DNA of 64,000 nt from positions 62,001 through 126,000 of the forward strand of contig JADLBH010000002.1 of assembly GCA_020847855.1 (NCBI GenBank), given 5' to 3'. The notes beneath the pieces are model-generated. The model did no database searches, was not told where the DNA came from, and was given only the letters and a program-made list of their open reading frames with translations. Every line of letters starts with the position of its first letter. Position 1 is the first letter of the stretch. Made by a program: the position numbers and the translations under genes. This document shows, piece by piece, positions 50,224 to 58,820 of the stretch. The DNA comes from Fimbriimonadaceae bacterium (GTDB taxonomy: Bacteria > Armatimonadota > Fimbriimonadia > Fimbriimonadales > Fimbriimonadaceae).

Positions 50224-51369
50224 CTAGTTCGGGCTGGGAGTGATGCTGAAGCCTTGCGAGGCGAGCTCTTGCCCGATGTGTCGCAGCTTCTTCATCGCTC
50301 GAAGCTCGATCTGGCGGACCCGCTCACGGGTGACGTTCAACGCGAGTCCAACCTCTTCGAGGGTGCGCGCTCGGCCATCGTCCAAGCCGAAACGGAGTCG
50401 GACGACGTCCCGCTCACGCCCCGTGAGTCGGCCCAGGATCGAGTCAATCTCCTCTCGACGGATCAAGTTCCAGGTGACATCGGAGGGCGACGGCATCGAG
50501 GTCGAGGGCACAAAGTCGCCGATCGAGCTGTTGTCCTTCTCGCCCACGGGAGTCTCGAGCGAGAGCGGCTCGACTGCGACGCGCATCATCTCCTGTACTC
50601 GGTCCGTGGACATTCCGACCTTTTCGGCGACCTCTTCCGGGGTGGCCTCGCGGTGGAGCTCCTGTTGAAGCGCGGTCGCGGTCTTCATCACCTTGTTGAT
50701 CAGTTCGGCGACATAGACCGGGATGCGGATCGTTCGGCCCTGGTTGATGATCGCCCGGGCGATCGCCCGTCGGATCCACCAAGTCGCGTAGGTGCTGAAG
50801 CGGAAGCCCTTGCGCCAGTCGAACTTCTCGACCGCACGGATGAGCCCGAGGTTGCCCTCTTGGATCAGGTCGGCGAGGGGGATGCCCCTTGCGTTGTACT
50901 TCTTGGCGATGGAGACGACGAGCCGCAGGTTCGATTCGATGAGTTGCTGCTTGGCCTGCATCCCCTGTCGCATCACGTCCTTACGGTCGAAGTCGGTCCA
51001 CTTATAGTTCGCGGGTAGGTTGTAGAGCTCGGCGACGTTCGCCCATTTGTCCTGCTCGGCGAGGTCTCGTGCCTGGACTCGCTTGGCCAAGTGCTCCTCT
51101 TGGGCAGGGGTAAGGAGGTGGGCGCGGCGGGTCTGCCGCATCCACATTTCAAGCTCTTCGCCCTCGTCCTGCTGCTGCTCTTCCTCTTCCTCCTCCTCTT
51201 CGAGCTCGAGAAGGTCCTCAGCGGCCGGCTCCTCGTCGAGGAGCATGTGCTTGTTGGCATCAATGTACGCGCCGCGGCTGCTCGCGCGCACGGTGATGGA
51301 CTTGCCTCGCCGGGCTGGGTTCAGTTGCTTCGGTTCCACTTGCATTGGTTCTTCGTTAGTTTTGGGCAT
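50224..51369 (-). CDS. rpoD: Primary sigma factor, RpoD/SigA type
   Basis: The 381-residue sigma-70 protein directs RNA polymerase to housekeeping promoters. An unusual acidic run of 8 Glu followed by Gln/Asp lies near residues 58-75, where region 1.1 would be in larger RpoD. Region 2 is well conserved: [34 protein letters not shown] and [15 protein letters not shown]. Region 4 helix-turn-helix is [24 protein letters not shown] 51369 is chosen; a TTG at 51405 is an in-frame alternative closer to the TACAAT box. An AraC-type gene follows after 4 nt. Confidence 0.93.
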
Positions 51370-51419
51370 CGTTCGCGCAGTCCACGGACATAGTCCAGTT
51401 TCCAAGGGTCACAGAGCCT

Positions 51420-52586: not shown

Positions 52587-53465
52587 CTAGACGGAGGCGG
52601 CGAGCGACGCGGCGACGAGCTTGGGAATCTCGGAAGGGGTGTCGGCCACGGTCGCTCCGGCTTCTCGGAGCGCGTCCACTTTGCTCTGCGCCGTGCCTTT
52701 GCTCCCGCTCACGATCGCGCCTGCGTGTCCCATCCGCTTGCCGGGGGGGGCCGTCCGCCCCGAGATGAACCCTACCACGGGTTTCTTCATCGTCTTGATG
52801 AACTCCGCGGCGGCCTCCTCGTCCGTACCCCCGATCTCGCCCACCATCACGACGCTCGTCGTTGCCGGGTCCGCCTCGAACATTTCGAGGACTTCAAGGA
52901 ATCGCGTACCCGGTACCGGGTCCCCTCCAATCCCGACGCACGTCGTCTGGCCGAGCCCGGTCCGCGTCAGTTCCCAAACGATCTCATAGGTGAGCGTGCC
53001 GGATCGGCTGACTAGCCCGACCGGGCCCTCGGCAAAGATATGGCCCGGCATGATCCCCATCTTGCACTTGCTTGGAGAGATGATCCCGGCGCAGTTGCCA
53101 CCGAGGAGCCGCGTCCTACCCTCGGAGCGAAGGCGGTTCATCATGGTGACCGAATCTAGGATCGGGATACCCTCCGTGATGAGGGTGACGAAGGGAAGCC
53201 CGGCGGCAGCGCACTCGAGGACAGCGTCCTTGGCGAACGGGGCGGGCACGAAGACGAGCCCGGCGTTGGGCGAGGTCGCTGTCACGGCTTCCTCCATTGA
53301 GTCGAAGACGGGAAGCCCGAGGTGCTCAGTCCCACCTTTGCCGGGAGTGACCCCGGCCACGACCTTGGTCCCGTATTCCAGCATCTGCCTTGTGTGGAAG
53401 GTGCCCTCGCTTCCTGTCATTCCCGAGACCACGACGCGCGTGTTCTCGTCCACTAAGATGGCCAC
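52587..53465 (-). CDS. sucD: Succinyl-CoA ligase subunit alpha
   Basis: The 292-residue subunit of succinyl-CoA synthetase has the CoA-binding start [12 protein letters not shown] and the phosphohistidine H247 in [11 protein letters not shown]. It works in the TCA cycle with SucC, which is not in the window, although sucC and sucD are usually adjacent. GTG 53463-53465 is the start; TATCCT lies 6 nt upstream. It heads a pair with the cysteine desulfurase gene. Confidence 0.95.
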
Positions 53466-53471
53466 GGGCTC

Positions 53472-53477
53472 AGGATA
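53472..53477 (-). promoter_or_regulatory. Leaderless-type -10 box (TATCCT) of sucD
   Basis: TATCCT on the minus strand ends 6 nt before the GTG start. No Shine-Dalgarno sequence is present. Confidence 0.45.
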
Positions 53478-53514
53478 CCGGGCCAAGTCCGTCGCACTGC
53501 GCCCCAAGGCCAGC

Positions 53515-53520
53515 TACAAT
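53515..53520 (+). promoter_or_regulatory. Leaderless-type -10 box (TACAAT) of the hisB-like gene
   Basis: TACAAT ends 7 nt before the ATG at 53528. No Shine-Dalgarno sequence is present. Confidence 0.5.
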
Positions 53521-53527
53521 GGTGTGG

Positions 53528-54109
53528 ATGGGGAAGTCGGGCCATAACGACCTACGGTTTGCCGAACTGGATGAGGACACGGGGCTTGCCAGGGCCCACA
53601 TCGTCCTCGATCTTGATGGCGGCACCCGGCGCGACGTCGAGACCGGCCACGCCGTCCTGGACGCTTGGATCGCCGACCTATCGCACGAGGCGGGCATTGA
53701 CCTCGGCCTGAGCGTCGAGGCAGAGGCGAGTTCCGACCCGCAGGACGTGGCCGAGGCAGCGGGCAGGGCTCTCGGATCCGCCCTCCACATCAGCTCCGAG
53801 GCAGGCGATCAGGTGATCGGGCTCGGCCACGCGATCGTGCCCCGGGGTGAGTGCCTCGTCTTGGTCGCCGTGGACCTTCAGTTCGGCCCTGGACTCGAGC
53901 TGGACTTGGGGCTGGTGCGAGAGTCCATCGGCTCGATGCCGTGCCAAGGCGTGACCGAGTTCTTCCGCTCGTTGAGCTCGGGCGCGCGGTGCAACCTCCA
54001 TGTGAAGCGCATGGCCGGACACAACGACGTCCACACCGTGGACGCGGCATTCCGTGGCTTGGGCCTGGCGCTCGGCCACGCGATCCGGCGCCGGGAGGAC
54101 TCCGCGTGA
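53528..54109 (+). CDS. Degenerate imidazoleglycerol-phosphate dehydratase (HisB)-like protein
   Basis: The 193-residue protein follows the HisB (IGPD) length and order by eye: IVLDLDGGTRRDVETG, a VLDAWIADLSHEAGIDL segment where HisB has FLDHML...HG, an AVDL strand, the IGSMPCQGVTEFF block and a late GHNDVHTVDAAFRGLGLAL. The metal-binding histidines are largely missing: the DHML His is Ala, and the HHTxED motif reads SSDPQD. In the last HHxxEA motif the first His is Val and the Glu is Asp. It is therefore probably not a dehydratase. No other his gene is nearby. Confidence 0.6.
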   Translation: MGKSGHNDLRFAELDEDTGLARAHIVLDLDGGTRRDVETGHAVLDAWIADLSHEAGIDLGLSVEAEASSDPQDVAEAAGRALGSALHISSEAGDQVIGLGHAIVPRGECLVLVAVDLQFGPGLELDLGLVRESIGSMPCQGVTEFFRSLSSGARCNLHVKRMAGHNDVHTVDAAFRGLGLALGHAIRRREDSA

Positions 54110-54151: not shown

Positions 54152-54421
54152 GTGCCTGACGAGTTTATTGGCCTCGCTGCCGTAGTGTTGATCTTCGCGA
54201 TCCCGATCGTGGCGATCTTGGCCCATCACCAGCAGAAAATGGCGAAAATGATTCATGGCGAACGGCCCGCGAGCCTGGACGCCCTGATCGGTGAGGTCCA
54301 ACGGCTCCGCACTGAGGTCGCAGACCTCAAGGAGACGGTTCACGCGAACGTCCTCGCCGCGGAGCTGAGTTCGGTTCCACCACCGCTGCAAGACCGGCTG
54401 GAGTCTAAAAACGATGCCTGA
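54152..54421 (+). CDS. Small membrane protein with coiled-coil tail (first of tandem pair)
   Basis: The 89-residue protein has one membrane segment at residues 6-25, then HHQQKMAKMIHG and a helical cytoplasmic tail with leucine heptads (LIGEVQRLRTEVADLKETV). The plan resembles PspB or similar short envelope regulators, but sequence identity to PspB is not claimed. GTG start, with GGGAG about 6 nt upstream. The stop overlaps the next gene's ATG by 8 nt. Confidence 0.6.
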   Translation: MPDEFIGLAAVVLIFAIPIVAILAHHQQKMAKMIHGERPASLDALIGEVQRLRTEVADLKETVHANVLAAELSSVPPPLQDRLESKNDA

Positions 54422-54692
54422 ATTGGTGTTCTTGATCCCGATCGCGGCGATCGTGTTCCCGATCCTCTTTGCGATCGTCATGGTCTTGGTCCGTCACCAG
54501 CAGAAAATGGCAGAGATCCTCCACGGCCAACCTCGGCTACAACCCGCCTCGGACGAGATCGCCCAGCTACGCACGGAGGTAGCCAAGGTGAACGACCGCT
54601 TGAACCAAGTCTTGCTCTCGCTTGAGCGCGGATCGGCCGTGCGACAAGAAGAGATCCAAGAGCGACTCGGCAACCAGCGAGAGACCGTTTAG
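54414..54692 (+). CDS. Small membrane protein with coiled-coil tail (second of tandem pair)
   Basis: The 92-residue protein is a paralogue of the gene just before it: a membrane segment at 3-24, then RHQQKMAEILHG, and a helical tail (IAQLRTEVAKVNDRLNQVL). The shared HQQKMA motif marks the end of the membrane helix. It overlaps the upstream gene by 8 nt, so both are translated together. Function is unknown. Confidence 0.6.
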   Translation: MPELVFLIPIAAIVFPILFAIVMVLVRHQQKMAEILHGQPRLQPASDEIAQLRTEVAKVNDRLNQVLLSLERGSAVRQEEIQERLGNQRETV

Positions 54693-54806
54693 CCTCAATT
54701 TGGGCCTTTCGTCCCGGACGTCAAGTAGGGTTGTGCTCCAGTCCCAGGATTCTCCGGCCCCGCCAGCCCGGTGCCTGGTATCTTATTGAGCCCCCCCGGT
54801 ATCTCT

Positions 54807-58820
<4,014 letters not shown>

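Follow-up and report, generated by a model that had tools for sequence, protein, structure and literature searches.

The gene at positions 53528 to 54109 of the 64,000-nucleotide stretch of Fimbriimonadaceae DNA analysed here (the window) encodes a relative of imidazoleglycerol-phosphate dehydratase (IGPD; HisB, EC 4.2.1.19; PF00475), and we refer to it as hisB*. It lies in the gene order sucD, hisB*, two small ORFs (tmcc) and rpoB, from which hisH and hisA are gone. The features of the locus are as follows.

52587 to 53507, minus strand: succinyl-CoA ligase alpha (sucD)-like gene, divergent, identified by profile search; near hisB in some relatives too
53515 to 53520, plus strand: -10-like box TACAAT, 7 nt upstream of the start codon; recurs in relatives
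53528 to 54109, plus strand: hisB-derived pseudoenzyme (hisB*), 193 aa, IGPD fold
54152 to 54421, plus strand: tmcc 1, small membrane-plus-coiled-coil ORF assigned by ORF pattern; found after hisB-hisH-hisA in several relatives
54414 to 54692, plus strand: tmcc 2, small membrane-plus-coiled-coil ORF assigned by ORF pattern
54771 to 58820, plus strand: rpoB-like gene, named from sequence; common to several relatives

The tmcc ORFs combine a hydrophobic stretch with a likely coiled coil and carry a motif around H-[QHKR]-[QRKH]-[KRN]-M; in many genomes of the order between one and three of them stand in tandem after hisB* or hisA, and the tmcc ORFs scanned with Pfam matched no family above cut-off. 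Further upstream, a sigma-factor-like ORF named from sequence (50224 to 51405, minus strand) has a long acidic Glu run near its N-terminus, and a similar run occurs in an ORF upstream of hisB in one relative, G004.

Family and fold of hisB*

The preliminary description of this DNA had proposed a HisB-like protein in an intact frame, and both parts of the proposal are borne out. The frame is open over 193 aa, and a Pfam profile search with its product returned IGPD (E 9.1e-27; 94.4 bits, with the cut-off at 27) over the entire profile, positions 1 to 144 of 144. All 13 NCBIfam HisB models also matched, with at most 93 bits against equivalog cut-offs of 189 to 443; both sets of models thus link the protein to IGPD, and its NCBIfam scores, about one-fifth to two-fifths of the cut-offs, lie below the level that marks a functional HisB equivalog. 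The 18 PDB sequences matched by hisB* were all IGPDs.

Structure prediction, which had been suggested as a check, recovered the IGPD fold and not another. An AlphaFold2 monomer model, built from an alignment with 36 relatives, reached a pLDDT of 93.1 and a pTM of 0.90, displayed the two-half beta-alpha-beta fold of solved IGPDs and matched A. thaliana IGPD2 (4mu0) over 185 residues at 1.6 Å with a Z of 28.6; the first non-IGPD fold matched had a Z of 7.0. The model represents a single subunit, IGPDs being assemblies of 24.

Loss of active-site residues

Residue n of hisB* corresponds to residue n+1 of A. thaliana IGPD2 in the structural and sequence alignments, and Arg121 and the Ser-Thr-Lys-Gly (STKG) motif of the C-loop are presumably features of functional IGPDs. 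According to the sections of the A. thaliana IGPD2 study drawn on here (Bisson et al. 2015; PMC4509728), Mn1 is bound by His47, His74, His169 and Glu173 and Mn2 by His73, Glu77, His145 and His170; Glu21 and Glu173 are the putative acid/base catalysts, and Gln51, His55, Arg99 and Lys177 lie at the phosphate. The same sections report that the E21Q substitution alone abolished activity and that the C-loop is essential, its deletion also abolishing activity (PMC4509728). The corresponding positions in the window, all on the plus strand and located by alignment, are as follows.

53585 to 53587: Leu for catalytic Glu21
53663 to 53665: Ala for Mn1 ligand His47
53741 to 53746: Gln-Asp for His73 (Mn2) and His74 (Mn1)
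53753 to 53755: Glu77 (Mn2 ligand) retained
53957 to 53959: Glu at 145 (Mn2 ligand position)
54029 to 54034: Val-His, His169 (Mn1) lost and His170 (Mn2) retained
54041 to 54043: Asp for Glu173 (Mn1 ligand, acid/base)

In the A. thaliana numbering, hisB* carries E21L, H47A, H55E, H73Q, H74D, R99G, R121G, H169V, E173D and K177R, and the STKG motif is absent. Glu77 and His170 are kept. Position 145, which is residue 144 of hisB* by the structural alignment and the alignment with A. thaliana IGPD2, is His in the plant enzyme and Glu in hisB*, as it is in 69 of 71 canonical relatives (the others have one His and one Asp). With Glu accepted there, five of the eight ligands assigned in PMC4509728 are lost, leaving none of the four Mn1 ligands and three of the four Mn2 ligands. 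The loss of most metal-binding histidines, as originally described, was therefore confirmed, and the changes of DHML to DAWI and of the last HHxxEA to VHTVDA had been read correctly. The reported change of HHTxED to SSDPQD, on the other hand, was read about four residues early; the aligned hexamer is QDVAEA (hisB* residues 72 to 77), in which Glu77 is retained.

Two complete Mn sites, and Glu21 together with the C-loop, were taken as the marks of a functional HisB, and hisB* lacks both. Because five ligands, Glu21, Arg99 and the C-loop are lost, the protein should not be an IGP dehydratase, as far as its residues can tell.

The histidine pathway in the host genome

The host genome (2.53 Mb in 41 contigs, 97% complete) contains hisB* as its sole IGPD, which excludes the second, normal hisB that had been proposed as something to look for elsewhere. 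HisD, HisG and HisI had no match in this genome, and the best match to HisA/F reached only E 8.5e-4. With HisD, HisG, HisI and a good HisA/F match all missing, the bacterium is presumed to be a histidine auxotroph. A hisB annotation alone is thus no proof that a genome encodes histidine synthesis.

Degenerate hisB genes across the Fimbriimonadales

Orthologues in relatives, also suggested as a check, do exist, and similar decay was found in several lineages. Within the order, 96 of 113 genomes matched the hisB* protein. A profile search for a diverged IGPD in the 17 others found none in 16 and a 26-residue fragment in G097, which was all that emerged of a hidden, strongly diverged hisB. The alignment comprised 92 native rows from 91 of the 96 matching genomes plus seven second copies; the rows omitted were those of G060, whose gene is divided between the ends of two contigs, of G085 and G086, with 41 residues at the end of a contig, of G109, a genome 65% complete with neither HisD nor HisG match, and of G110. 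Two records in the collection are likely mislabelled or mixed bins: the hisB on the L143 contig, which is titled Methanoregulaceae archaeon, is of the Fimbriimonadaceae type, and two native-type copies (L095 and L096) occur in G098, one of them protein-identical to that of G100.

We call a native row freed if its genome matches neither HisD nor HisG, or if a his gene cluster of that genome holds a second IGPD. This definition gave 21 freed rows, 14 by the absence of HisD and HisG and seven by the presence of a second, his-cluster IGPD; HisI and HisA/F searches covered 61 genomes. G050 was counted as pathway-less despite a 44-position HisD fragment, as was G013 (89% complete) despite one good HisA/F match, whereas G080 (77% complete, HisG but no HisD) and G108 (an acquired-type HisB only, no HisG match) were counted among the 71 non-freed rows.

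The loss of active-site residues followed this division. All 18 native rows with a lost ligand came from freed genomes, and all 71 non-freed rows kept E21, R99, R121, K177 and the eight ligands, with Glu, His or Asp counted as a ligand at 145. Among the 21 freed rows, E21 was kept in four, R99 in nine and K177 in 11; ligand losses occurred in differing combinations in differing lineages, and three freed rows (G004, G009 and G054) kept all eight ligands and had changed C-loop residues. The His of the LHV motif (position 159, hisB* residue 158), which is not a ligand in the structure as described in the sections of PMC4509728 drawn on here, was kept in all 71 canonical and all 21 freed rows.

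A quick tree required at least four changes of the freed label and grouped the window with G007, G091, G016, G082 and G083 (SH-aLRT 96), hereafter the window clade; the window branch, at 1.93, is the longest in the tree. Seven genomes (G007, G005, G012, G044, G046, G083 and G091) have a degenerate native hisB beside an acquired his cluster. Their second IGPDs (L032, L035, L037, L039, L041, L074 and L094) kept all eight ligands in six of seven cases, the start chosen by our script for G091 having cut off the first ligand column. In the same tree the second copies cluster with HisBs of other families and not with the native rows of families f1 and f5, and they fall into two groups, suggesting more than one source. 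The compact his clusters look like re-acquired histidine pathways.

Gene position and promoter of hisB*

Comparison with canonical relatives suggested that hisB* is a native gene in place. In all six inspected, hisB is followed by hisH (named from sequence) and hisA, and in four of them (G024, G001, G099 and G062) one or two tmcc ORFs come after hisA; of the remaining two, G031 has no tmcc by the pattern used and the contig of G087 ends. G001 also has a sucD-like gene upstream of hisB and apparently rpoB downstream, as read from antisense ORFs. Given this shared position relative to sucD, tmcc ORFs and rpoB, hisB* looks native and not transferred.

The promoter box attributed to the gene held in part. 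TACAAT is plausible and recurs in relatives: among canonical relatives 42 of 71, and among freed ones 11 of 21, have a TANNNT box 3 to 14 nt ahead of the start codon, compared with 123 of 1820 background positions. A search for a sigma-70-type -35/-10 pair found none. The hisB* transcript may have a short leader or none.

Selection on freed copies

That the gene is under selection had first been concluded from its open frame, and codon tests on degenerate relatives support it. These relatives carry the comparison since the window has no close relative among the genomes compared, so that codon constraint was read from them and from the pair of the window and G007. In the degenerate pairs compared, codon position 2 differed least and position 3 most (0.29, 0.18 and 0.42 for positions 1, 2 and 3 between G016 and G083; 0.43, 0.36 and 0.59 between the window and G007). 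A codon model with omega=1 was rejected in all nine freed pairs tested (2dlnL 74 to 163), including 102.8, 118.2 and 137.2 among G016, G082 and G083 and 74.4 for the window and G007; only this likelihood ratio was used, because dS was saturated and the GY94 omega therefore unusable in most pairs. Among G016, G082 and G083, which belong to one genus, Nei-Gojobori dN/dS was about 0.2 to 0.3, and as all three share H169R their ancestor was already degenerate. In this genus alone does the constraint clearly postdate the loss of catalysis, the divergence elsewhere possibly predating the loss in part.

These data bear on the possibility that hisB* is a neutral relic, decaying after loss of the pathway and still open since too little time has passed. 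The differing combinations of ligand losses would fit such decay, as would the complete loss of the gene in some relatives and the resemblance of G004, G009 and G054, with eight ligands and altered C-loop residues, to its early stages. Nevertheless, in a drift simulation of substitutions only, without indels, a stop-free frame survived 0.3, 0.5 and 1.0 substitutions per site in 2.5%, 1.1% and 0.05% of runs, respectively, whereas the frame is open in 21 of 21 freed rows. Together with the codon-model results and the IGPD fold predicted at high confidence, this makes neutral decay unlikely. An open frame under amino-acid constraint, which would mark a pseudoenzyme under selection, was thus found, the constraint being that of the degenerate relatives.

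A remaining Mn2-type site

The ligands that survive are unevenly distributed in the window clade together with G002. Of the 28 cells that each site has in these seven rows, 23 keep the ligand for Mn2 and 8 for Mn1, a split among the three most extreme of 70, and E77 and H170 are kept in all seven. One reading of this pattern is that hisB* is a new enzyme, which kept most of the Mn2 site (Glu77, position 145 and His170) and would catalyse another reaction. The rows are related, so the cells are not independent; moreover, position 145 is kept in only four of the seven and His73 in five, not including the window, and E21, R99 and the C-loop have been lost. When more rows were included, the idea that a metal site is lost as a unit failed to reach significance (splits as extreme numbered 3 of 35 over the 21 freed rows, 4 of 35 when each lineage contributed one row and 5 of 35 when hisB* stood for the whole six-row clade), and in G021 and G014 it is the Mn2 ligands that were lost instead. 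The one-site pattern is taken here as a lead. We consider a new catalytic activity distinctly unlikely, although the window clade may be putting the remaining Mn2-type site to a new purpose.

Two further readings fare worse. If the ORF were translated as a leader or spacer ahead of the small membrane genes or of rpoB, its proximity to them would be explained, tmcc ORFs lying within about 100 bp downstream in 7 of 21 freed genomes and rpoB in several; in G091, G014 and G009, however, neither tmcc nor rpoB adjoins the native hisB, and the constraint acts at the amino-acid level, which leaves this reading very improbable. Continued IGP dehydration by an altered active site, for which the same fold and three of eight ligand positions might speak, is ruled out for practical purposes, as there is no pathway to serve and as Glu21 and the C-loop, each indispensable in A. 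thaliana IGPD2 according to the cited sections of PMC4509728, are missing along with five ligands.

Retention of IGPD without a pathway

To place these genes in a wider context, we surveyed the 205 genomes of the phylum that are at least 90% complete, using IGPD and HisD searches outside the order. No HisD match was found in 19 genomes, 15 inside the order and four outside. IGPD was kept in 11 of the 15 but in none of the four in the rest of the phylum (Fisher p 0.018), and with partial-HisD genomes included as pathway-less the counts were 12 of 18 and none of six (p 0.014); both p values are indicative because the genomes are related. This restriction to the order is the main reason to suspect an older second role of HisB. 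Since the other four of the 15 have no IGPD, such a role would not be essential everywhere.

Twelve columns are conserved in canonical f1 and f5 rows and not in other IGPDs, and eight of them, including E13, G32, R34, D36, G60 and E64, are kept as the same or a similar residue in all seven rows of the window clade and G002. Freed rows kept lineage-specific columns at a mean of 0.84 against 0.60 for active-site columns (p 0.0065); in the window clade and G002 the means were 0.82 for lineage-specific, 0.48 for active-site and 0.81 for other conserved columns. Lineage-specific columns were favoured only over active-site columns and were retained no better than other conserved columns in the freed rows (p 0.57), so a putative binding patch was not singled out.

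Discussion

We propose that hisB* is a vertically inherited hisB, kept in a lineage without the pathway as an IGPD-fold pseudoenzyme for a second, non-catalytic role, and we put the probability of this reading at about 0.68. In this scenario, a lineage of the Fimbriimonadales (phylum Armatimonadota) that carried a native hisB would have lost histidine biosynthesis; the protein, freed from catalysis, would then have lost one metal centre, the residues for acid/base catalysis and phosphate contact, and the closing C-loop, and the IGPD-fold remainder would have been retained for the second role. That related bacteria also keep disabled copies suggests such a second job. As a property of this lineage's HisB it would most likely predate the loss of the pathway, and it would be carried by the folded, probably oligomeric, shell together with lineage-specific residues mostly in the N-terminal half (9 to 14, 32 to 36 and 60 to 64). 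Binding of a partner or ligand is the function we infer for it.

The finding of a hisB-derived pseudoenzyme whose genome lacks the histidine pathway is real, and it is one case of a repeated transition in one order, which is best read as HisB having turned more than once into a pseudoenzyme maintained by selection. A more general proposal is that HisB of families f1 and f5 has a second function independent of histidine, and that loss or replacement of the pathway strips the catalytic layer while selection holds the rest, giving a series from the intact enzyme through partly stripped forms to a dead shell, with the hisB* protein among the extremes. We regard this proposal as tentative, at somewhat less than even odds.

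Comparison of hisB* with known systems places it close to IGPD in sequence family, full-length fold and native gene position in the order, but it differs by the change or loss of five of the eight Mn ligands, of Glu21, Arg99, Arg121 and Lys177, and of the C-loop, and its genome lacks the pathway genes searched. The canonical native HisBs of the Fimbriimonadales (e.g. G031, L127) are orthologous and share with it E13, G32, R34, D36, G60 and E64; unlike hisB*, all 71 keep their catalytic residues, and the six inspected are followed by the hisH and hisA that are absent after hisB*. Pseudoenzymes are known in many families, and one of them, HisZ, a catalytically dead paralogue of histidyl-tRNA synthetase that regulates HisG, is likewise tied to histidine metabolism. 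HisZ has another fold and acts in an intact pathway, whereas freed hisB genes occur where the pathway has been lost or depends on another HisB. The literature searched, which left most subscription journals outside, contained no account of a naturally inactive HisB.

Because a single order supplies 21 freed and 71 constrained sequences of one family, comparison could separate residues needed for catalysis from those of a second, hidden function. The seven genomes with two HisBs offer another route, as deletion of the native copy could reveal its function without histidine starvation, should these bacteria prove culturable and manipulable.

Relatives of other histidine enzymes were also noted in the order. 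In family f5, weak HisA-like matches adjoin the degenerate hisB at L040:10423-10965 and in G044, G040, G054 and G050, and a HisA-like match in G046 scored 28.8 bits with Pfam His_biosynth over part of the profile only; a weak match of this kind also occurs in G042, although no IGPD was found there. The f5 matches are possibly a second pseudoenzyme. Partial HisD-like matches at G018:C1:2736438-2736908 and G094:C1:2586698-2587171 (E about 1e-16, within positions 42 to 187 of 411) sit in frames of 407 aa, in genomes that lack both HisG and IGPD, and these frames perhaps encode a diverged HisD relative with another role.
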